From contig NDWX01000010.1 in NCBI GenBank assembly GCA_002855745.1, positions 1-64,000 on the forward strand: 64,000 nt of DNA. Direction: 5' to 3'. This document shows, piece by piece, positions 4,422 to 62,375 of this stretch (position 1 is its first letter; the number at the start of each line of letters is the position of its first letter). Under the pieces are notes generated by a model. That model was not told where the DNA came from. It searched no databases and saw nothing but the letters and a program-made list of their open reading frames with translations. The position numbers and the translations under genes are program-made. Source of the stretch: Thermofilum sp. NZ13. Lineage in GTDB: Archaea > Thermoproteota > Thermoprotei > Thermofilales > Thermofilaceae.

Positions 4422-7400
4422 TTGAGCCTCGAGCACAGCTACGAGGATCTGGTGGAGCAGGCCGCCAAGAGAGTTGAAGAGATATTCAAGAAAGGCAGGG
4501 GTGTGGTTGTCCTCGCGGGGCCCGGCTCCTCCCGCCTAGAGGTAGCCAGGAGGGTTCCGGAGTCGAGGGTCGTGAGCTACAAGCTCCCGGGCCTTGAGGA
4601 GCTACAGGGGGAGGGCCGCGCCGAGCTCCTGAGGTTTGAGGGCGCAGAGCCGCTCGTAGGCGGCAAGACTCTCGCCGAGTACATCGAAAAGTTAAGCCCC
4701 GCGAGGGTGATCGTGGTCCCGGAGAGCACCATAGAGGCGATCAGAGCTTATCGCTCGCTAAGCGAGAGGCTCGAGGAGGATAAGGTCGCCTTAGTCTTCA
4801 CGCCCGGGGTCCACGAAGAGGAGTTGAAGAGGAGTGGCTTTAAGCCGCCCGGGGAGGCGGAGGTAGACTGCAGCGCGGCGTTCAAGGCCTTCAACGCTAA
4901 GCCTGAGGGCGGCGGCAAGGGCGTCTCGCTCAAGCTACTCCAGTACCACAGGACAGGGGAGTGGGAGAGGCTGAGGAGGGGCGCCGAGGCATTGAGGGCG
5001 CTGAGCCCCGGCCGCCTAGGCCTGAGGGGCGCGCTGGTAAATGCGGGCAGGAGGGCGCTTTCCTCGCTGGGGGAGAGGCTGGCCGAGGAGCTCTACGCCG
5101 TTGCTGGCGGCGCGGCGGTAGCCTCCGCGCTTGTAGCGCTGGCATCGCCGCTGGGATTGCCCGCGGTCGTGGCCCAGGCAGTTGGCTACAGCTTCCCCCC
5201 GAAGCTCCTCCTCGAGATCGCTAGGGAGCTGATCGGCGCAGGCGGCGGCAGGCCGGAGAGGGAGCACGTCAAGCGCTTGGCGGAGCTCATCCAGGCAGCC
5301 ATCATCGCCAGCGAGTTCGTGGGCGACGAGAGGCTCGAGGGGGTGGCGGACGAGGTTGCCAGCCGGTGGGGCCTGAGCCTCGAAGAGTTCCACAAGCTCG
5401 TCGAGAACCTCCGCAAGCTGGCCACGCAGGAGGTAGCCACCGAGGACGATCTCAAGAAGCTCAGGGAGGAGGTCAAAGACGACCTCGAGGCACTCGAGCA
5501 GAGGCTCAGAGAGCTCTTCGAGCAGAGGATAGAAATCCTTGAAGAGAAGCTCGAGGACAGGCTGGGACAGCTCGAAGGGAGGATCAAGAAGCTCGAGAAA
5601 AGGGTCGGCAGGATCGAGGATCAGCTCAGGCCTCTCCGAGCCCTAACTAGGGTGTATCAGGAGCCGGGGGATCTGGGCTTCGACCTCGAGCGGGGGAAAT
5701 TCTGGGTTGGGAAAGAGTACACCCTCGTCACCTCCGGTCGGTTCGTGGAGCACGCAGGCAAGCTGCTCGAGGCGCTGGAGCTCGGGGAGCTCGTGGTGGT
5801 CACGGGGCCTAGGGGCGTTGGCAAGTCGGTGCTGGCCAGGTACGCGCTCGCAAAGCTCCTCCAGAGCGGCCACTGGAGAGTGTACAGGGCGAAGACGCTC
5901 GACGAGGAGAGTGCGGCTGAGGTGGCCGATAGCCTGGCCAGAGTTGCGGACAACTCGCCCTGGAGGCTGGCGGTGCTCTACGACCCCTCGGCGCCGCTCT
6001 TCTACGAGCCGAAGCGCAAGGCCTCGCCGCGCCCAGACGTGGGCCCCACCGTGGGCGAGCTGGCGGGACTCCACAGGGCGCAGGGTGGTAGGGTGCCCGT
6101 GGTGGTCGTGCTACCCGAAGACCTCTACGAGCATGTGAAGGACGAGCTCGAGGGGGCCTACGTGCTCAGGGTCGATCTCAGGCAGGAGGATTTCCTAGCC
6201 GACATAGTCCGCGCCTACAGCAGGGGGGCTTGCGGCGAAAACGTGTACGAGAGCATCGCTGGGGAGATTACTGTAAAATATGAGGGCGGCTACACGCTCG
6301 TGGCTAGGTACGCTGGCGAGTGGCTTCGCGAGGCAGGGGGGTGCGACTGGGAGGCTGTTCGGGAGGCGCTCGGGACGGGGGCCGGGAGCGCCATGGCGTT
6401 CATAGCCCTCTTCATCTACAAGGCCGTGTTCAGGGGCAACCTCGACCTCTTCCAGAAGATGGCTGTGCCCTTCATAGCCCGCGCAGAGCTGGACCCGCTA
6501 CCGCCGAAGTGGCTGGAGCGCTTCCCAGTCCTGGAAGAAAGAGGAGACGGGGGCTACGTGGTCAACTGCCTCGAGAACCCGCTCGAGCATTTAACAGAAA
6601 AGGAGAAGGAGTTCATCAGGGAGTGGCTCTCCCAGCCTAAGGAGGACATCGTCGAGGACGTGATCTGGCGTATAGCCCGTGGCAAGCTCTCCGGGAGGCT
6701 CCAAGAGCTCGCGGAGAAGGGACTGGTCGGCAAAGGGGTCTTAGAGACAGCGAGAGGGATGGAGGGGGGAGTGAAGCTGGTTAGGGAGGCGCTAGGGAGT
6801 GCGAGCTTCGACGGCGAGTGCAGAGAGAAAGACCCCATCGGGGTGCTCTTCAAGGCACTGGCTAGCGATCCGAAGCTCAGAAAGCTTGCGGAGGAAAACA
6901 GCTACCACTTCGTAGCCCTAGTGGGTCTAGCCCACACACTTCTCCCGGTGAAACCCCTCTTAGAGGAGGCTGGCTTCCCCGAGGGTCTTAAAGGATGGTT
7001 CACCGTCAGGGGCGAGATGCCACCATCAGCCAGGCGGTTCCTGGTTGAGGCTGCCCCCGCCTTCAGGCTCGCCGTAGACCCCTGCGAGGTCCTGAAGAGC
7101 GTTCACCAGCAAGCCGAGGAGGAAAAGGGGTACAGACTCACCTCGTTGTTAGCGGCTCTCGGCGCACTGGCGATCTCAGAGGGGGAGCCTGAGGGGTGCT
7201 TAGACGAGGCAGTTCTCGCTACAGGATTTGCGCTCAGAATAATACCGCTGTCGTTGTTGGTGATCCCTTACTTGGCTCGCATTCCGAAAGCCCCCCAGGG
7301 GCTTGTGGGGAAGCTTATGAGGGAGGGTTTGTGGCTCGAGGCAGTAAGCGTAGCGTACAGCGCGTCGAGGTGGGAAGCTTGGCTGGCCTCCGACCTCCTG

Positions 7401-8735
7401 CAGACCGTGGAGCGGGGGGCTGGTAGCTTGGAGAGGCTCGACCCGCTCACGCGCACGCTTTACGAGGAAGCAGACTACCTTGCACGAAGTGCACAAGATG
7501 AGTGGCTCGGGAAGTGGGCTGGGAGGGTTGAAGCCTTCCTGAACGGGCTGAAGGAGGACGTAGTGGGCCTCCACGCGAGGGCCCTGCTGGGAGCGAGGCT
7601 GGCGAATGCTCTCAGGACAATAGACCCCGGGATGGCGCTAAAGTGGGCTGAGGAGGCGCGCAGAGCCCTCGAGCAACTGGAGCGGCTCGACGGGAAAGAG
7701 CTCGCGGATAGCTTGGAGCCGTTATTGAAGGTCAGGGCCCCCTTCGTGGAGCGGGAGGAGGCCGCCAAGTTGTGGCTGGCGGATTTGAAGCTTACTGTGC
7801 TTTACGTGAGGGCTCTCATCGAGCTGATGGTCGACGCTGAGGAGGCGCTGAGGCTCGCGGAGGAGCTTCACGTAATCACTGAGAAGCTAGGGCCCTCAGA
7901 GCTTGCGCTTTCGCGCTCGCTCCGCGCCAGGGCGATGCTGCTGGCCGGCCTAAAGAGGGAGGACGTCATCGGGGAGATCAGGGAGAGCTGGGAGCTCGCG
8001 CAGGGTGAGGGATTCATCAACATCTCCGAAGATATTGTTGAAGGGACCACCGCGGAGTACGCGGCGTCTTTCCTCCTGGAGGGCATGACCCGGGAGGCGC
8101 TCGAACAGTACCGGGAATACGGCTTCCGCATCCGAGATCCAGAGTTCCGTGCCGCGCTTTTAGCCCTCTTGCTGGCCTTCGGCGCTGAGGAGGTGAGAGA
8201 AGACGTGAAGGAAGTGAGAGAGGAGTTCGAGGAGTACAGGCGCAGAGCCCTCGCGTACAGCGCCCCAGACCCCCTGGCAGCCGCGCTCTTCGTCCTATAC
8301 GAAGAAATTTGGGAGGAAGAGGCTTGGTACAGCTTAGAGCCTCAGGAACACGAGGTCTTCGCGGACATCTTGGAGGTAGCTTGGAAAGGCGACGTGAACC
8401 TGCTGCTACAGCGGCTCAAGAAGCTACCCAGACTTGGCGAGCAGGTTCGCGAGCTTGAGCCCCACCTAGAGGGGCTTTCGGCGCTAGACGTTCTCGAAGC
8501 GATAGCCGCTCTGACAAATAGTAGAGCAACCTTCGTCGAGGTAGTGCGCCATGCCTGCCTGGAGGGGAGAGCTGGTCTAGCTAAGGCGCTCGCCGAGTAC
8601 TGGCAGGAGGAGATGAGGGTGAGGGGCTTCGCTCTTACTGCGAGGCTGTGGGCTGATCTAGCGAAATCACTGGAGGGCGGTTGCGGTGAGGGGTTCAGGG
8701 AGGCGCTGGTCAGGCTGTTCTACTTACTGGTGTAG
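4422..8735 (+). CDS. Giant P-loop NTPase with coiled coil and helical repeats (STAND-like)
   Basis: This 1437-residue protein is not assigned to a named family. Residues 1-140 resemble a degenerate P-loop domain: GPGSSR at 33-38 sits where a Walker A would be, without the lysine. Residues about 200-260 hold a Gly/Ala-rich hydrophobic stretch that might touch membranes. Residues about 330-410 form a long charged coiled coil. A good Walker A, GPRGVGKS, lies at 462-469, followed by AAA/STAND-like strands (LAVLYDPSAP, VPVVVVLPEDLY). The last 700 residues are Leu/Ala/Glu-rich helices like TPR repeats. This order (NTPase then superhelix) is typical of signal-transducing STAND ATPases, which in prokaryotes often act in defence or regulation; that role here is inference. 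It has its own promoter, TTG start, and sits in an accessory block beside a broken gene and a membrane sensor-like gene. No known effector (nuclease, protease, TIR) is visible. Confidence 0.75.
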   Translation: MSLEHSYEDLVEQAAKRVEEIFKKGRGVVVLAGPGSSRLEVARRVPESRVVSYKLPGLEELQGEGRAELLRFEGAEPLVGGKTLAEYIEKLSPARVIVVPESTIEAIRAYRSLSERLEEDKVALVFTPGVHEEELKRSGFKPPGEAEVDCSAAFKAFNAKPEGGGKGVSLKLLQYHRTGEWERLRRGAEALRALSPGRLGLRGALVNAGRRALSSLGERLAEELYAVAGGAAVASALVALASPLGLPAVVAQAVGYSFPPKLLLEIARELIGAGGGRPEREHVKRLAELIQAAIIASEFVGDERLEGVADEVASRWGLSLEEFHKLVENLRKLATQEVATEDDLKKLREEVKDDLEALEQRLRELFEQRIEILEEKLEDRLGQLEGRIKKLEKRVGRIEDQLRPLRALTRVYQEPGDLGFDLERGKFWVGKEYTLVTSGRFVEHAGKLLEALELGELVVVTGPRGVGKSVLARYALAKLLQSGHWRVYRAKTLDEESAAEVADSLARVADNSPWRLAVLYDPSAPLFYEPKRKASPRPDVGPTVGELAGLHRAQGGRVPVVVVLPEDLYEHVKDELEGAYVLRVDLRQEDFLADIVRAYSRGACGENVYESIAGEITVKYEGGYTLVARYAGEWLREAGGCDWEAVREALGTGAGSAMAFIALFIYKAVFRGNLDLFQKMAVPFIARAELDPLPPKWLERFPVLEERGDGGYVVNCLENPLEHLTEKEKEFIREWLSQPKEDIVEDVIWRIARGKLSGRLQELAEKGLVGKGVLETARGMEGGVKLVREALGSASFDGECREKDPIGVLFKALASDPKLRKLAEENSYHFVALVGLAHTLLPVKPLLEEAGFPEGLKGWFTVRGEMPPSARRFLVEAAPAFRLAVDPCEVLKSVHQQAEEEKGYRLTSLLAALGALAISEGEPEGCLDEAVLATGFALRIIPLSLLVIPYLARIPKAPQGLVGKLMREGLWLEAVSVAYSASRWEAWLASDLLQTVERGAGSLERLDPLTRTLYEEADYLARSAQDEWLGKWAGRVEAFLNGLKEDVVGLHARALLGARLANALRTIDPGMALKWAEEARRALEQLERLDGKELADSLEPLLKVRAPFVEREEAAKLWLADLKLTVLYVRALIELMVDAEEALRLAEELHVITEKLGPSELALSRSLRARAMLLAGLKREDVIGEIRESWELAQGEGFINISEDIVEGTTAEYAASFLLEGMTREALEQYREYGFRIRDPEFRAALLALLLAFGAEEVREDVKEVREEFEEYRRRALAYSAPDPLAAALFVLYEEIWEEEAWYSLEPQEHEVFADILEVAWKGDVNLLLQRLKKLPRLGEQVRELEPHLEGLSALDVLEAIAALTNSRATFVEVVRHACLEGRAGLAKALAEYWQEEMRVRGFALTARLWADLAKSLEGGCGEGFREALVRLFYLLV

Positions 8736-55443: not shown

Positions 55444-56331
55444 GTGACCGTCTACGCTCTCGAAAATTCTTACGGCATAGCCGCTGGGATAGCAAAGTCT
55501 ATTGGAGACAAGCTTGTCCAGGTAGAGTACAAGCTCTTCCCAGACGGTGAAAGCTACATAAGAGTACAGCAGAGGCCAGAAGGCCCTGCAGTGCTTGTTG
55601 CTTCCCTGTACCCCAACCCCGACAAGAGGATCTTCGAGCTCTTCATGGCGGTTGAAGCTCTAAGGGCCATCACGCAGGATGTGGTAATAGGAGTAGTGCC
55701 CTACATGGCTTACGCGAGACAGGATAGGAGGTTTCTGGATGGTGAGCCGATCAGCGTGAAGGTGGTGCTTAAAACTCTCGAAGCGCTCGGTCTCGACGCC
55801 CTAATCGTTGTCGACATACACAAGCCCGCAGTCCTCGATGAGTACTGGGGAAAGCCTTACCGCAACGTCTTAGTTGACAAGCAGGTAGCAGACTACTTCA
55901 AAGGCAAGCTTTCGAACCCGCTGGTTCTAGCACCTGACGCCGGGGCGTTAGAGCGGGCTAAAAGAGTTGCAGAACAACTAAATGCAGATTACGATCACTT
56001 GGTGAAGGAGCGGGACAGAGTAACCGGGGAGGTCAGGGTCTCCACAAAGGAGATTAGCGTCACTGGGAGGGACATCCTCATCGTGGACGACATCATAAGC
56101 ACTGGCGGTACTATGGCGTTAGCGGCCAAGACGGTCCTCGCGCAAGGAGCCAGGAGCGTTTACGCCTCATGCACGCACGCCGTCATGGTTAAGGGAGCGT
56201 TGGACCTTCTCCTGTCCTCCGGTATACAAGAGGTTGTTGCCACGGACACCGTGCCCTCCCCGGTATCAAAGATTTCCGTTACACCCGCAGCCGTTGAGGC
56301 ACTTAAAGACCTATTGGAAGAAGTTCTCTAG
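55444..56331 (+). CDS. prs: Ribose-phosphate pyrophosphokinase (PRPP synthase)
   Basis: The 295-residue enzyme makes PRPP from ribose 5-phosphate and ATP. Diagnostic parts are FPDGESYIRVQ, YMAYARQDRRFLDGEPISVKVV, DIHKPAVLDEYWG and the PRPP-binding loop DILIVDDIISTGGTMA. It has the compact archaeal class III length. The 3' end overlaps the HerA-like gene by 21 bp on the opposite strand. Confidence 0.95.
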   Translation: MTVYALENSYGIAAGIAKSIGDKLVQVEYKLFPDGESYIRVQQRPEGPAVLVASLYPNPDKRIFELFMAVEALRAITQDVVIGVVPYMAYARQDRRFLDGEPISVKVVLKTLEALGLDALIVVDIHKPAVLDEYWGKPYRNVLVDKQVADYFKGKLSNPLVLAPDAGALERAKRVAEQLNADYDHLVKERDRVTGEVRVSTKEISVTGRDILIVDDIISTGGTMALAAKTVLAQGARSVYASCTHAVMVKGALDLLLSSGIQEVVATDTVPSPVSKISVTPAAVEALKDLLEEVL

Positions 56332-58002
56332 TTTTGCTGTTTTGTCGGGCTTCTTCTGATTACTTCCTAGCGAGTTAGCCTTAGCTTCGCGATGGGAGAA
56401 TAATAGTTTTGAAATGTCGAGGAACTCCTGTCTTCCGCTCCACGCTTTGGACCAATCAACGTCCTTCCCGCCGAGCTCCACTGCATAAAGTTCACTGAAG
56501 CTATGGATGTTCACGATGGCAGGGAGTGGAGCCGCGGCTCCAGACACCAGGGCCTGCCCGACCGTCAGGCTGGAGAGACTCTGAACAAGCTCGGCTGTAA
56601 TGTCCTCTACACTCAGCATTATGTGGCGTTGATCTTCGGGGTTTGTGGTCCTCATTGCTATGAGTGTACCGCACTGAGCCAGCAAGGTCTGGCTTAGCTC
56701 TCTAGGCCTCTGGCTGACGATACCTAACCCTACTCCGAACTTTCTGCCTTCTTTAGCTATTTTCTCGAGGATCTGGCGGGAGGGGGTCTCACGGTCTTTA
56801 GGAGCGTAGATGTGCGCTTCCTCAACTATCACGAGTACCGGTAGCGAGGCACCTGCCTGAACGTGGGCTGACACGACCCTCCACAAGGCGCGTAAAATAG
56901 TCGCTGTAGTCGTGATCTGAACCTCGCTGGGTAAGCCTCCAAGGGCTACTATTGTCAACCCCTCGTCGAAGAGCCTCCTGTAAACCTGCGCGTAGGCCTG
57001 CCCGCTCTTCTCTGGTTCCGGTGCCAATACCCTCTCGTAAATCTCCTTGCTTGCAGAAGGGGAGGTGATGAAAGAGAGTTCTGGGTCATCTAGCAAGCTT
57101 GCCAGCTTAAGCCTAAGGTCTGTAGCCGAATCATCGCGGCCTCTAATTTCCTCAAGAAGTTTGCCTGGCTCGAAGTATATTGGGTCATCCGGAGTGGCCT
57201 CTCCCCACTTCTCACGGCGAACGGCTAGTAGGGCCTCGCGTAGGTGGAGGAGTTGCTTCGTTGCGCGGCTATCAAGCCTGAGAAGCTCCGCAATCTCCTC
57301 AAAGCCTAAGCTCCACAATGGTACTTCGAGAGACTGCGGGTCAATGCCGTACCTCCTTCTGAGCATCTCCTGGAGAACCCCACTGGGAGAGAATACCCTG
57401 ACTCTGCCCTGAAACAGTTTCGCGAGGGGGACGTACTCGCTATGAGTGTCTATAAGCAAGATGCGGGGTGAAGTGTACCTTTCGAGGATTCTAGATACGA
57501 TCACTGCAACCGTGTTCGATTTCCCGGAGCCAGTCATAGCTAGAACCGCGAAATGCCTAGAGGCGAGCATGTTTAAGTCGAGCGTGAAGTTGACGCCTGG
57601 AGCCGCAACTAGGGTGCCTACATCGATATCGTAGGAAGACAGGAGTGGTTTAAGCTGGTCTACACCAGCTAGGAAAACCCTCTCGCCAGGAGCTGGAAGG
57701 CTTTCCACGCCTCTAACGACCTTCCCGTCACGCACGTAGCCTACCACAACGGCCGTTATCTCGTTCCTTGTGACGATTACGTCTTCATACCCTTCGAGTT
57801 CCTCGAGGACGCGCCCGCGCTTGTAGAGCTCGTCCGTGAGAAGATAGCCGGCGATAAGCGCCAAGTGCTTGGTTCCACTGCTCGAACGGAAGGTCACGTA
57901 CGTCCCAGGCCTGGACACTAGCCTGAAAGCTTCGTCGGGAACAGCTATTCTAAGCAAGTTTCGTCCAAAGACGTTCACTATCTTGCCAACTTCGCCACTC
58001 AA
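56311..58002 (-). CDS. herA: HerA-type hexameric DNA translocase
   Basis: The 563-residue ATPase pairs with NurA in DNA end resection. It has an N-terminal HAS-barrel (1-125), Walker A MTGSGKSN (156-163), Walker B IVEEAHIYAPK and the sensor-like SQRPREL, arginine-finger region ISVxx TNPEDQRHIML. Length is slightly above Sulfolobus HerA (about 500). It follows nurA by 58 bp on the same strand. Mre11 and Rad50, which often flank this pair, are not here. Confidence 0.92.
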   Translation of the reverse strand: MSGEVGKIVNVFGRNLLRIAVPDEAFRLVSRPGTYVTFRSSSGTKHLALIAGYLLTDELYKRGRVLEELEGYEDVIVTRNEITAVVVGYVRDGKVVRGVESLPAPGERVFLAGVDQLKPLLSSYDIDVGTLVAAPGVNFTLDLNMLASRHFAVLAMTGSGKSNTVAVIVSRILERYTSPRILLIDTHSEYVPLAKLFQGRVRVFSPSGVLQEMLRRRYGIDPQSLEVPLWSLGFEEIAELLRLDSRATKQLLHLREALLAVRREKWGEATPDDPIYFEPGKLLEEIRGRDDSATDLRLKLASLLDDPELSFITSPSASKEIYERVLAPEPEKSGQAYAQVYRRLFDEGLTIVALGGLPSEVQITTTATILRALWRVVSAHVQAGASLPVLVIVEEAHIYAPKDRETPSRQILEKIAKEGRKFGVGLGIVSQRPRELSQTLLAQCGTLIAMRTTNPEDQRHIMLSVEDITAELVQSLSSLTVGQALVSGAAAPLPAIVNIHSFSELYAVELGGKDVDWSKAWSGRQEFLDISKLLFSHREAKANSLGSNQKKPDKTAKLENFFQ

Positions 58003-58060
58003 GGCGTACTCACAACATGCATGGGGTTTACGTAAATAAATCGATCACTGGCGATCAACC

Positions 58061-59317
58061 TTAAAGAGCGATTTCCCGACCGATAGGCGAGAGGATACTC
58101 TTTAAAGCTCCGCTGGAGTCCCGCCAGAGCCTTGTGGCAAAAGCCTCGGCAAGCTCTTGCGAAAGCACTGCTTTGTGGTGTACAACCGCAAGAGGGCGCG
58201 GGTACCCGCTTCTTTCATCGGCGAGCTCCGAGAGCGTTGCCATCACGTCCTCCAAGCGATCCATAGGCACTAGCTCGCTGGGAAAGGATGCCTGAAGAAC
58301 GGGACCAGCCCTCGAGATCTTAAAGTACACAACGGTGAACCTGTTGAACCTATACGCGCGTTTAATCGTATCCGAGGACGCTATTGGGTCTCGTGGAGGA
58401 GAAACGGGTTTGAGCGACCTTGCTTTCATGTCCTCCCGTAAAACAAGATACAAGCGCTCCTTTGCATGCCAGATGATACTAAGCAGAACCGCATCGCTGA
58501 TCCACCCCTGCACGCCGAGCACCTCAGATAAAAAGCGGCTTGTGGTCTCCTTCGCCACCCATATAGGCATGATCCCACTTTCCTTGGCCCGTGAGAGTAA
58601 CTCGCCCAGTAGCCTCAAGTAGAAGTTAACCTCGGTGTACGCTACGCTGAAATCTATGAGGATCTGCTTGCTGAGACCTTCTTCAATTCCTAGATCTGAC
58701 AGCGGCTCGTACAAAGACTCGGCGTGATCGTAGATTGTCGCCAAGAATCGGGCAACAGCCTTCAGGAACCTCGCCGCGTCCTCCTCCTTACCGGCCTCCT
58801 CAATCAACCCATCGATAGCTCTGTTCACTTCATCCTCTACATCTTTTAGCACGGTCTGTAGAGGCACCCCCCGAGCTCTAAGAGCAGAGTGCACCTGTGT
58901 GACAGCCTCATAAGATGAACCGTACCCAGCGAGGAGCGATGCCAAGCAGCTTCCGTCAAACACTACCAGCTCGACACCCCTCCTGACAGCCCTTATACCC
59001 TCTAATAGCTCGAGCGAGCCCATGATTAGCGAAGCCCTCGTCTCCCCAAGGAACTTAGGAATGAGTATGTGAGGTAACGGGTGCCGCGCCCCCGGCATGC
59101 CGTCTACGAGCCTCCTGGAGACAACTCCGACAGAAGCCAGCGAAAGCAGGGAAACGAAAGACCCCTGCCTTTCGCTCAACGCGTAGCTCCCATCGATAAA
59201 CCACGAGCTGCTTAACGGCCGGCTTTTTATTTCATCAGCCTCTTCAAGCTCGCTCTTTGCCCTGGACACGATTTCCTCGATTTCCCAAATCAGCTTTGAT
59301 TTATCCAGTCTGTGCAT
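58061..59317 (-). CDS. nurA: NurA-domain 5'-3' nuclease
   Basis: The 418-residue protein has the NurA signature SSWFIDGSYALSERQGSF with Asp42 as a metal ligand, VVFDGSCLASLLAGY carrying a second catalytic Asp, and IDFSVAYTEVNFY. It trims DNA ends with HerA. It is first in the nurA-herA operon and diverges from the M20 peptidase gene. Its promoter must lie in the 67 bp between. Confidence 0.88.
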   Translation of the reverse strand: MHRLDKSKLIWEIEEIVSRAKSELEEADEIKSRPLSSSWFIDGSYALSERQGSFVSLLSLASVGVVSRRLVDGMPGARHPLPHILIPKFLGETRASLIMGSLELLEGIRAVRRGVELVVFDGSCLASLLAGYGSSYEAVTQVHSALRARGVPLQTVLKDVEDEVNRAIDGLIEEAGKEEDAARFLKAVARFLATIYDHAESLYEPLSDLGIEEGLSKQILIDFSVAYTEVNFYLRLLGELLSRAKESGIMPIWVAKETTSRFLSEVLGVQGWISDAVLLSIIWHAKERLYLVLREDMKARSLKPVSPPRDPIASSDTIKRAYRFNRFTVVYFKISRAGPVLQASFPSELVPMDRLEDVMATLSELADERSGYPRPLAVVHHKAVLSQELAEAFATRLWRDSSGALKSILSPIGREIAL

Positions 59318-59384: not shown

Positions 59385-60623
59385 GTGATGCCTGAAGGCT
59401 TTGACATGGTAAGCTTCCTGCTCGAGCTCGTGAGAATTCCTAGTGAGTCGGGGTACCAAGGAAACACCATCGTGAGGCGTAACTACAGGGAGATTGTCGC
59501 GCTCATCGAAAAAACAGCCGTTGAGAACGGGCTAACAGTTGAGCGCTTGGAGCTCCTTAACGGAGACATACCATCTCTCGTGATAGGGCTCCCTGATGCT
59601 CCTAGGAACAAACCATCGATGGCGTTTGTCACACACTATGACGTGGTTCCAGCTAAAGGCCCCTGGGTTGTGGACGGGCAGCAGATGGATCCTTACGAGC
59701 CGATAGTGAGAGACGGTAAAGTGTACGGTAGAGGGGCTGCGGACGACAAATCGGCTATCGCAGCTGTCATGGCGGGGCTTGTCTCTCTTAAAGGTGCAGG
59801 GGAGAAGTTGCGCTATGCTCCGTTTCTGGTGATTACTGGGGACGAAGAAGTAGGCGGCACCGGGGTTAAAGCCCTGCTGGAACAGGGTTACAGGTGGGAC
59901 CGCGTTGTGATCGTTGATTCGGGCTCCGAGTACGTTTCAGTTGGGGCAAGCGGCGTTGTTCACGGATGGATTAAGGTGAGGGGAAAATCCGGTCACGCAG
60001 GCTATCCTCACGAGACACGCAACGCAGTAGAGGACTTATTGAAGCTATTGTGGGAGCTATGGGAGTACAAGGCTCTCAGACATGGGAAGCTGTCGAAGCT
60101 CCCCTCTCCTCCAGGTAGCCCGGTGCCCCAGGTCTGGGGACGCTTTACAGTAACTGTGGTTAAACTCCCGGAAACAGAACCCGAGAAACACAACAGAGTA
60201 CCTGGAGAGGCGTGGGCGGGATTTGACATGAGGCTAATACCGGAGGAAAGGGTAGAAGACGCTCTGCATGAGTTCTACGCATACTTCTCGTCAGCCGTAT
60301 CCAAACTAGGTATTAGCGCGAAAGTTGAGGTAATCACAAGTCAGCCGGGTTGGTACGCGAAGAACGAGCTCTTCGTCAGAGAGGTTGTAGAGGCCGCGAA
60401 GAAAGCTTACAGAGATGTGGGCTTCCTTGGTGAGCCTTCTGTTGCCGCCGAGCTGGGAGGGAACGATGGAACTTACTTTGACCTCTACGGCATGGACGTC
60501 GTGGCGTTCGGAACCATACGCGAGGGGACGAACATTCACTCCGAAGGTGAGTTCGTCTACATTGAAGACCTAGAGATGTTTAAGCGCTTTATGGTAAACA
60601 TTCTTTTAGGGGATTCTCGTTGA
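59385..60623 (+). CDS. M20-family metallopeptidase
   Basis: The 412-residue protein shows the M20 zinc motifs: FVTHYDVVP (first His), GRGAADDKSAIAAVM (bridging Asp), ITGDEEVGGTG (catalytic and metal Glu), and a later GTIREGTNIHSEGE (last His). The dimerisation domain (about 185-300) with GKSGHAGYPHETRN is normal. Likely substrates are short peptides or N-acylated amino acids. GTG 59385 or ATG 59388 starts it. The stop overlaps the TTG of the MoaD-MoaE gene by 3 bp. Confidence 0.88.
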   Translation: MMPEGFDMVSFLLELVRIPSESGYQGNTIVRRNYREIVALIEKTAVENGLTVERLELLNGDIPSLVIGLPDAPRNKPSMAFVTHYDVVPAKGPWVVDGQQMDPYEPIVRDGKVYGRGAADDKSAIAAVMAGLVSLKGAGEKLRYAPFLVITGDEEVGGTGVKALLEQGYRWDRVVIVDSGSEYVSVGASGVVHGWIKVRGKSGHAGYPHETRNAVEDLLKLLWELWEYKALRHGKLSKLPSPPGSPVPQVWGRFTVTVVKLPETEPEKHNRVPGEAWAGFDMRLIPEERVEDALHEFYAYFSSAVSKLGISAKVEVITSQPGWYAKNELFVREVVEAAKKAYRDVGFLGEPSVAAELGGNDGTYFDLYGMDVVAFGTIREGTNIHSEGEFVYIEDLEMFKRFMVNILLGDSR

Positions 60624-61309
60624 AAGTTAAGGTTAGGTACTTGGCCTTCTTCAGAGATTTAACGAAATGCAGCGAGGAGATCTTTGAAATCCCTGAGAGC
60701 GAAGCTAAGGTGGCTGACATCTTAACAACTGTTTCCGAAAAATATCCGCGTATGAAAGACTACGTAAACAGCGGGGAATTCGTTGTCCTCCTAAACAACA
60801 AAAGCGCGAGGCTCGGCGACACCGTAGTTGAAGGGGATGAGGTCATCCTCATGCCCCCAATTTCTGGGGGCTCACACTATGCATTCGTCGACTCTGTGGA
60901 TCCGGTCGTGCTGCTTGAAGCTATGCTCAAAGCCCTCGATGACAGCGCAGGAGCCGTGGCCGTCTTCATTGGAAGAGTGAAGGGCTCAATCGACGGGAAA
61001 AAGGTAAGCGAGCTTTACTACGAGACCTTTGAGCCGATGTCGACGTCCACACTCGCGAAGATAGGTGAGGAGGAATCGCTGAATCACGGGCTCCTCTACG
61101 CGACAATCTACCACAAGAAGGGCTCTGCCAAGCCCGGGGAGCCAGTGCTGTTCATAGGAGTAGCCTCAGAGAGTCGAGAAAACGCTCTAGGCGCCTTGGG
61201 AGCGATCCTAGAGCGCGTAAAGCACGAAGCCTACGTTTGGAAGCTTGAAAAACGAGAAGACGGTGAGTTCTGGATACTGGGAGACAGAAAAAGGGTGCCA
61301 AGAGGCTAG
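60620..61309 (+). CDS. MoaD-MoaE fusion, molybdopterin synthase
   Basis: Residues 1-84 are a MoaD-type ubiquitin fold ending in PPISGG (Gly83-Gly84). Residues 86-229 are MoaE (HYAFVDSVDPVV, GAVAVFIGRVKG, YHKKGSAKPGEPVLFIGVAS, and YVWKLEKREDGEFWILG with the active lysines). In the usual enzyme the MoaD C-terminal glycine must be free to carry the thiocarboxylate. Here it is followed directly by SHYAFV, so cleavage after Gly84 is expected, as found for other MoaD-MoaE fusions that are cut by a JAMM protease. TTG start, coupled to the M20 gene. Confidence 0.93.
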   Translation: MKVKVRYLAFFRDLTKCSEEIFEIPESEAKVADILTTVSEKYPRMKDYVNSGEFVVLLNNKSARLGDTVVEGDEVILMPPISGGSHYAFVDSVDPVVLLEAMLKALDDSAGAVAVFIGRVKGSIDGKKVSELYYETFEPMSTSTLAKIGEEESLNHGLLYATIYHKKGSAKPGEPVLFIGVASESRENALGALGAILERVKHEAYVWKLEKREDGEFWILGDRKRVPRG

Positions 61310-61371: not shown

Positions 61372-61845
61372 TCAGATAGGTTTATCGTCCTTTGAGGCCT
61401 GTTTAACTTTCTCCAACACGCGTACTTCTCTTATCAAGGTGTAAGGATACTGGCCTCTACCGTCTTTCTCCAGGGATTTTACCATATCCCACACCGTCAA
61501 GAGCGCCACGGTAACGCCCGTCAAAGCCTCCATTTCGACTCCCGTCTTTGAGGTGGTTTTAACAGTGACCGTTGCCTCCACACCATCCTCTGTTAAATCG
61601 AAGTCGACCTCCACGCCGGTTATTGGAATTGGGTGACAGAGCGGGAGTATCTCCCAAGTCTTCTTCACTGCAAGTATCGCTGCCACGCGCGCCACGTTCA
61701 GCACGTCGCCTTTTGGAACCTTCCCCTCCAGTATAGCTTTTACCGTTTCTTTCTTCAGTTGAATGAAACCGCTAGCAGTAGCCTCTCTGTAGACTTCAGG
61801 TTTCTCCGTTATGTCCACCATCTTCACTCCTATTTTGCCGCTCAT
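61372..61845 (-). CDS. moaC: Cyclic pyranopterin monophosphate synthase MoaC
   Basis: The 157-residue enzyme works at the first stage of molybdenum/tungsten cofactor synthesis. Conserved parts are MVDITEKPEVYREATASG, KGDVLNVARVAAILAVKKT, LPLCHPIPITGVEVDF and GVEMEALTGVTVALLTVWDMVKSLEK. It overlaps moaB by 4 bp on the same strand and converges on the MoaD-MoaE gene. Confidence 0.95.
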   Translation of the reverse strand: MSGKIGVKMVDITEKPEVYREATASGFIQLKKETVKAILEGKVPKGDVLNVARVAAILAVKKTWEILPLCHPIPITGVEVDFDLTEDGVEATVTVKTTSKTGVEMEALTGVTVALLTVWDMVKSLEKDGRGQYPYTLIREVRVLEKVKQASKDDKPI

Positions 61846-62375
61846 ACGGCTCGCCTCGCTAGGCTTAAGACGTGGCCAGCCTCTGGGACGATGAGTTCCC
61901 TTAAAGCGGTCTCGACAGCCCCCGGCGACCCAGGAATACAGAAGATAATTTTACCGCGTACAATCCCGGCGGTGGAGTTAGAGAGGAAACTGGATGAGCC
62001 GGCTTCCTTAAAGCTCACAAACCTGAATAGGTCCCCAAACCCTTCTAGCTCTTTTTCAAACAAAGGTCTCACAGTTTGAACAGTTAGATCGTCTGGCGTG
62101 GGTCCTGTGCCCCCGCTTACGATGATCTCATCAACGTCCGGCTCATTCAATAGAGTATCTATTGCTAAGAGAATAAGACGAGGGTTGTCAGGGACGAGAA
62201 CATAACGCGTCAACTTATGACCACTCCTTTCAATTATCTCCCTCGCTTTCATGAAGGAAACATCTTCCACGCTCCCTCCCATCCGCGAGGCGAGATACCT
62301 AGATGTGCTCACAGTTACAAATGCAAATCTTACAGTGGTTGGAGCCTCCTTTTTATGTACCTCGATCGTAGTCAT
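61842..62375 (-). CDS. moaB: Molybdopterin adenylyltransferase MoaB
   Basis: The 177-residue protein is an archaeal MoaB, which adenylates molybdopterin. Signature blocks are RFAFVTVSTSRYLAS, the metal-binding VDEIIVSGGTGPTPDDLTVQTVRPL, FRFVSFKEAGSSSFLSNSTAGIVRGKIIFCIPGSPGAVETALRELIVPE. It leads the moaB-moaC operon, with a 4-bp overlap to moaC. Confidence 0.93.
   Translation of the reverse strand: MTTIEVHKKEAPTTVRFAFVTVSTSRYLASRMGGSVEDVSFMKAREIIERSGHKLTRYVLVPDNPRLILLAIDTLLNEPDVDEIIVSGGTGPTPDDLTVQTVRPLFEKELEGFGDLFRFVSFKEAGSSSFLSNSTAGIVRGKIIFCIPGSPGAVETALRELIVPEAGHVLSLARRAV

Follow-up and report, generated by a model that had tools for sequence, protein, structure and literature searches.

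Molybdopterin synthase of Thermofilum sp. NZ13 is encoded as one polypeptide, in which the small sulfur carrier MoaD is joined to the catalytic subunit MoaE through its own C-terminal diglycine. The gene most probably specifies a pro-form of the enzyme that is cut after Gly84 by the JAMM peptidase of the same genome and then thiocarboxylated, a reading to which we assign a probability of roughly 0.88. It lies near the end of the window, the 64,000-nucleotide stretch of DNA that was analyzed, and its principal features and those of its neighbors are collected in Table 1.

Table 1. Coordinates, in the window, of the MoaD-MoaE fusion gene, its parts and the adjacent genes.
Feature	Position	Strand	Basis
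Fusion open reading frame	60620-61309	+	MoaD then MoaE in one open frame
MoaD half (beta-grasp sulfur carrier), residues 1-84, C-terminal end ILMPPISGG	60620..60871	+	Pfam ThiS 5-84
Codons of the internal diglycine Gly83-Gly84; cut expected directly behind	60866..60871	+	Residue numbering, conservation, low pLDDT
MoaE half (the catalytic molybdopterin synthase subunit), residues 85-229 plus stop codon	60872..61309	+	Pfam MoaE
Presumed active-site lysines of MoaE, Lys201 and Lys208, at a spacing of seven (KHEAYVWK)	61220..61243	+	
M20 peptidase (DapE/ArgE-type deacylase) gene	59385..60623	+	Profile matches
moaC, convergent with the fusion	61372..61845	-	Pfam MoaC; NCBIfam MoaC equivalog over cut-off
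moaB/mogA-type MoCF_biosynth gene (4-nt overlap with moaC)	61842..62375	-	

The fusion is a single open reading frame of 229 amino acids that begins with a TTG codon, and its start overlaps the stop of the M20 peptidase gene by four nucleotides (TTGA). Directly upstream of this pair, genes for a HerA-type helicase and NurA are arranged in tandem on the opposite strand (56311-59317). Both domains of the fusion protein score over the curated Pfam cut-offs, ThiS/MoaD at residues 5-84 (E 1.3e-9) and MoaE at residues 102-203 (E 1.5e-22), while the score of the MoaD half against the NCBIfam moaD_arch model, 48.4 bits, falls slightly below the cut-off of 49.5. Gly83-Gly84 is the sole Gly-Gly of the chain, and the MoaE sequence (SHYAFVDSVDP...) begins right after Gly84 with no linker at all; open reading frame, Pfam domains and sole diglycine thus agree with the original prediction that the PPISGG end of MoaD runs straight into MoaE. 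Since 22 other genomes of the class share this fusion, diglycine junction included, it is neither an assembly frameshift nor a product of chance, and an architecture of MoaD followed by a full MoaE in one genuine open reading frame is confirmed. Lys201 and Lys208, which we take to be the equivalents of the active-site lysines of E. coli MoaE, are invariant in alignments of the fused relatives. Two lysines of identical spacing, K240 and K247, are termed active-site analogues in a passage of PMC4443979.

The predicted structure is that of two folded domains. AlphaFold, supplied with a seven-row alignment of the window protein and six relatives, returned a model of the fusion with a mean pLDDT of 79.7 and a pTM of 0.57, in which residues 81-89, around the diglycine, form a low-confidence joining stretch with pLDDT below 50. 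In Foldseek searches this model matches structures of MoaE, among them 1fm0_E, and of MoaD/SAMP1, among them 1vjk and 3po0.

The genome assembly (1.88 Mb in 33 contigs, 98.94% complete) contains all of the parts that the processing model needs. A JAMM peptidase encoded elsewhere in the genome had been anticipated in the original prediction, and a single recognized one is present on a contig other than that of the fusion (C32:60000-60422; Prok-JAB 41.1-41.2 bits against a Pfam cut-off of 25), where its neighbors are genes for an aldehyde:ferredoxin oxidoreductase and a MobA-like protein. Its signature, E...HxH-x7-S-x2-D, is intact (Glu34, His91, His93, Ser101, and Asp104), and the signature residues are invariant across a 16-row alignment of JAMM sequences. 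The best solved match of the resulting profile is JAMM1 of P. furiosus (5lda/5ld9, E about 5e-40). Against the haloarchaeal desampylase equivalog NF041370 of NCBIfam the protein reaches 28.9 bits, below the cut-off of 130, and it is therefore not filed under that family. The pairing of this JAMM with a MobA-like gene is not claimed to be the Jab-cytidylyltransferase pair of PMC2948915, for which the passage concerned names arCOG01222 as the partner. The genome also encodes a single E1, MoeB/UbaA-like in type, and four proteins with MoaD/ThiS matches, namely the fused one and three free paralogues, the latter brought to light by the genome search that had been proposed for them. All three free proteins end in Gly-Gly; two of their genes adjoin aldehyde:ferredoxin oxidoreductase genes and one adjoins a TtuA-type gene. 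The opposite arrangement to that predicted, a functional MoaD and a functional MoaE encoded apart, is absent from this genome, where the fused MoaE is the only one (a single PF02391 match) and a stand-alone MoaE that might serve as a substitute was not found.

Translation of the gene would yield an inactive pro-form of the molybdopterin (tungsten/molybdenum cofactor) synthase, because a peptide bond occupies the C-terminal glycine with which MoaD carries sulfur. The JAMM would then recognize and bind the MoaD fold and cut behind Gly84 in the flexible stretch, the freed MoaD glycine would be adenylated by the single E1, sulfur would be loaded onto MoaD as a thiocarboxylate, and MoaD and MoaE would assemble and pass the sulfur to cPMP. 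Adenylation, thiocarboxylation, assembly, and cPMP conversion are established molybdopterin-synthase chemistry. The cut, its position and this JAMM as the cutter are what we infer, on the strength of the comparative evidence that follows and of published work on HvJAMM1, MoaX, and DR0402.

The closest comparisons come from the genus itself, for which seven genomes were searched. Fusion and JAMM are both present in five of these (G000, G030, G032, G034, and G035). In the other two, G031 (99% complete) and G033 (81% complete), moaD stops directly after the diglycine (PPVSGG-stop and PPISGG-stop, respectively) and is followed by a separate moaE, 2 and 54 nt behind; no JAMM was found in either genome by Pfam, with the JAMM of the Thermofilum sp. 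NZ13 genome as query, or with the 16-row JAMM profile, though one may be hidden where sequence of G031, or of the less complete G033, is masked or missing. The slot that holds the JAMM gene has the order AOR, M42 peptidase, JAMM, MobA-like in G034 and G035, and AOR, JAMM, MobA-like, with no M42 gene there, in G000, G032, and G030; in G031 and G033 the same slot reads AOR, M42 peptidase, MobA-like, so that JAMM is absent from a stretch that is free of N. An exact test of the association of fusion with JAMM across the seven genomes gives a p of only 0.048, and the strength of the comparison therefore lies in the anatomy of the locus and not in the number.

Two other peptidases were considered and rejected, one as the processor and the other as a replacement for JAMM. 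The M20 gene product, which the original prediction had already judged an unlikely processor, is rejected, being a deacylase of the DapE/ArgE type whose gene still stands directly before the split moaD in G031 and G033, where JAMM was not found. A swap, in which the M42 peptidase would have replaced JAMM in these two genomes, is likewise rejected, as M42 and JAMM stand side by side in G034 and G035. The M42 aminopeptidase and JAMM genes are adjacent on one strand between the AOR and MobA-like genes at 5250-6702 of locus L098, where they overlap, and at 6695-8215 of locus L099.

Trees of up to five proteins group the split G033 with the fused, JAMM-bearing G034, with UFBoot values of 100 for the concatenated proteins, 89 for the three operon proteins, 95 for AOR, and 84 for the MobA-like protein, and leave G031 outside this pair at a place that is weakly held (83 and 68). 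Because G033 pairs with G034, G031 falls outside the pair, and the spacings of the two splits differ (2 vs 54 nt), the sequences are most simply read as recording two separate losses of JAMM, each with its own split of the fusion; a single loss followed by a later regain of both fusion and JAMM in G034 is a possible alternative history. The pair formed by G034, fused and with JAMM, and G033, split and with JAMM not found, can be regarded as a natural experiment within one genus, one that would link a protease of the ubiquitin type with a metabolic task and would indicate how a peptidase could become committed to a single substrate through gene fusion.

Across the class, 47 of the 81 genomes sampled encode MoaE, and their fusion status was assigned by open frame and sequence. 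Diglycine fusions occur in 23 genomes, 22 of which encode JAMM; the one without, G024, is an assembly that is 57% complete. JAMM is present in 14 of the 24 other MoaE genomes (with G012 below the cut-off), a group that includes three MoaB-MoaE fusions (G010, G022, and G036), and in 8 of the 34 genomes without MoaE. The difference between fused (22/23) and unfused (14/24) genomes has a Fisher p of 0.004, with kinship ignored. In the three MoaB-MoaE fusions, a divergent MoaE lies behind a domain of MoaB/MogA type that was recognized by eye, in frames of 300, 291, and 296 aa for G010, G036, and G022 (L078, L079, and L080). Within family f13 (G037-G061), no MoaE was found in 21 of the 25 genomes and only a short, divergent one in four, with frames of 121-126 aa, and Prok-JAB matches are found in none of the 25. 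The 13 JAMM sequences that were read from family f14 (L044, L045, L047, L048, L051-L053, L056, L057, L060, L061, L065, and L067) have the signature HxH-x6-S-x2-D, one residue fewer than the x7 of the Thermofilum sp. NZ13 JAMM, as do those of f9 (L063 and L066) and f51 (L172-L175).

MoaE is present in 214 of the 300 genomes of the phylum sample, and 30 of these genomes were chosen, among the matches listed, for a long frame or for kinship to a genome with such a frame. They comprise 15 diglycine fusions (JAMM in 13), 12 unfused MoaE genomes (JAMM in 10), and three fusions without the diglycine (G098, G257, and G272), all three lacking a JAMM over the cut-off, although a Prok-JAB fragment below it (21.1 bits) occurs in G098. 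The front half of these last three proteins (L151, L153, and L155) is a degenerate MoaD-like domain from which the diglycine has been lost (APPPGV), and free MoaD-type matches occur elsewhere in their genomes. Over both samples, JAMM accompanies 35 of the 38 diglycine fusions and none of the three fusions without diglycine (Fisher p 0.002, kinship ignored). Of the 41 fused genomes examined for JAMM, 38 retain Gly-Gly, and in all of these 38, which had been chosen by frame and profile before a junction pattern containing Gly-Gly was applied, the Pro-Pro and Gly-Gly of the junction are identical and the residues behind them vary. Four further loci that are fused with Gly-Gly (L114, L116, L117, and L118) stand outside these counts, and L111 and L113, which are the proteins of G025 and G024, were counted once.

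JAMM is common in unfused genomes as well (24 of 36 with an unfused MoaE over both samples) and must therefore have other work; in G330, where moaE stands without moaD, it is retained. This frequency of JAMM without fusion lends some weight to the view, partly compatible with the other readings, that fusion and JAMM are linked by shared ancestry only and that JAMM removes ubiquitin-like modifiers in general, but we consider that account unlikely, as it sits poorly with the coupled changes within a single genus, of which there are most simply two, and with loss of the diglycine together with absence of JAMM in another family. It is also at odds with two single genomes. In G069 the MoaD-MoaE is decayed, and searches with Pfam and the JAMM profile gave no JAMM, while in G145 JAMM, MoaD-MoaE, and E1 are overlapping genes on the same strand (taken as longest open reading frames), so that protease, substrate, and activating enzyme apparently share one operon.

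A protease other than JAMM, for instance a proteasome-like, M42, or other peptidase, could also make the cut after Gly84, although we hold this to be distinctly improbable. It is favored by G163 and G198, two single-contig, 99% complete genomes of one genus that keep the diglycine fusion and in which there are zero Prok-JAB matches and no firm match with the JAMM profile. The G198 scan covered all stop-to-stop frames of at least 70 codons in 1,297,538 bases with the JAMM profile and the motif, and the frame reading of G163 covered 400 kb of 1.39 Mb, partly N. Two weak leads emerged in G198, neither with a Pfam match: a 276-aa frame with HxH-x7-S-x2-D that adjoins an E1 gene (E 0.005 against the JAMM profile), and a frame of 162 aa that carries HKH-x6-SIRD (hhalign E 0.007, at a probability of 5%). 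Either may be the missing JAMM, but neither is accepted as such. The first of these frames is part of a gene run (L186, 540-2813) with a protein that by eye looks ubiquitin-like plus E2-like and lacks a Pfam match, and a ThiF/E1 over the Pfam cut-off. This run resembles the bacterial ubiquitin-like conjugation (Bil-type) operons. Either a very divergent JAMM or another protease serves in G163 and G198, which makes them the places to look for both. That the M42 gene adjoins JAMM in G034 and G035, and that the protease acting on mycobacterial MoaX was unidentified in 2015 according to a passage of PMC4326299, would also suit a different cutter; within the genus, however, it is JAMM that is missing where the genes are split, M42 and M20 both staying in place, and G000, G032, and G030 have no M42 at the JAMM slot yet are fused.

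Very unlikely, finally, is a fusion that is never cut, with a structural fused MoaD and a MoaE half that uses the thiocarboxylate of a free paralogue, for although the genome offers three free MoaD/ThiS proteins ending in Gly-Gly and the pseudo-MoaD fusions of G098, G257, and G272, which lack the diglycine and coexist with free MoaD-type matches, show that such a state is possible, the diglycine should then drift as it has in those three, yet it is kept in nearly all fused genomes, with variable residues following it, and the joint absence of fusion and JAMM would be left unexplained.

Cleavage of the pro-form by JAMM after Gly84, the preferred reading, invites a broader proposal, which we advance tentatively and at somewhat less than even odds. 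The fused synthase may make JAMM indispensable in these archaea, with JAMM acting in the fused lineages foremost as a dedicated maturase of the synthase and the uncut chain as a zymogen by which supply of the tungsten/molybdenum cofactor could be switched. Lineages may have escaped this dependence by a split behind the diglycine, most simply twice in one genus, jamm disappearing from its conserved slot on both occasions, or by loss of the diglycine.

The principle of such processing is already published for Haloferax (with an engineered fusion), Mycobacterium, and Deinococcus. In Mycobacterium tuberculosis, MoaX (Rv3323c) is a MoaD-MoaE chain in which a cut between Gly82 and Ser83 is needed for activity, as passages of PMC4326299 state, and the genome also has moaD1, moaD2, moaE1, and moaE2. 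The junction is Gly-Ser both there (82-83) and in the Thermofilum fusion (84-85), and the MoaE part of MoaX (9jbd) is the best PDB sequence match of the latter, although MoaX is bacterial. For the corresponding pair of Deinococcus radiodurans, DR2607 and DRJAMM, PMC8832034 and PMC11237513 cite Yang 2018. There the JAMM DR0402 (DRJAMM) cuts the natural fusion DR2607 and leaves a C-terminal Gly, and DR2607 is, like the Thermofilum protein, the only MoaD-MoaE pair of its genome (passages of PMC8832034); this system too is bacterial, whereas in Thermofilum the role of JAMM rests on comparative evidence.

Among archaea, MoaD-MoaE fusions are listed for 18 of 35 Thermoproteales and 5 of 30 Desulfurococcales in PMC11237513, a passage of which says that cleavage is needed, and fusions are also recorded in parts of PMC1779556, PMC2948915, and PMC4443979. 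These are fusions of the same kind as the one described here, and the survey passages do not relate fusion or fission to the presence of JAMM; nor was a published link between the two found in the openly licensed PMC literature, supplementary tables (e.g. S1 Table of PMC4443979) aside. The apparent joint loss of fusion and JAMM in one genus, and the loss of the diglycine with absence of JAMM in another family, both as judged from genome sequences, were likewise not found in that literature. JAMM1 of P. furiosus (5ld9, 5lda) aligns with the JAMM profile along almost all of its length, and the Thermofilum sp. NZ13 JAMM is itself divergent.

A functional precedent is HvJAMM1 of Haloferax volcanii. 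According to passages of PMC4443979, this enzyme cuts linear SAMP1-MoaE exactly behind the final glycine of the diglycine and thereby makes the synthase active in cells. That fusion was engineered, as H. volcanii encodes samp1 and moaE apart, whereas the Thermofilum fusion is natural. Archaeal fusions had been listed earlier, with a cut predicted to be necessary, and an artificial fusion was used for the archaeal test in the passages of PMC4443979; the genome of Thermofilum sp. NZ13 encodes both a natural archaeal fusion and its likely cutter.
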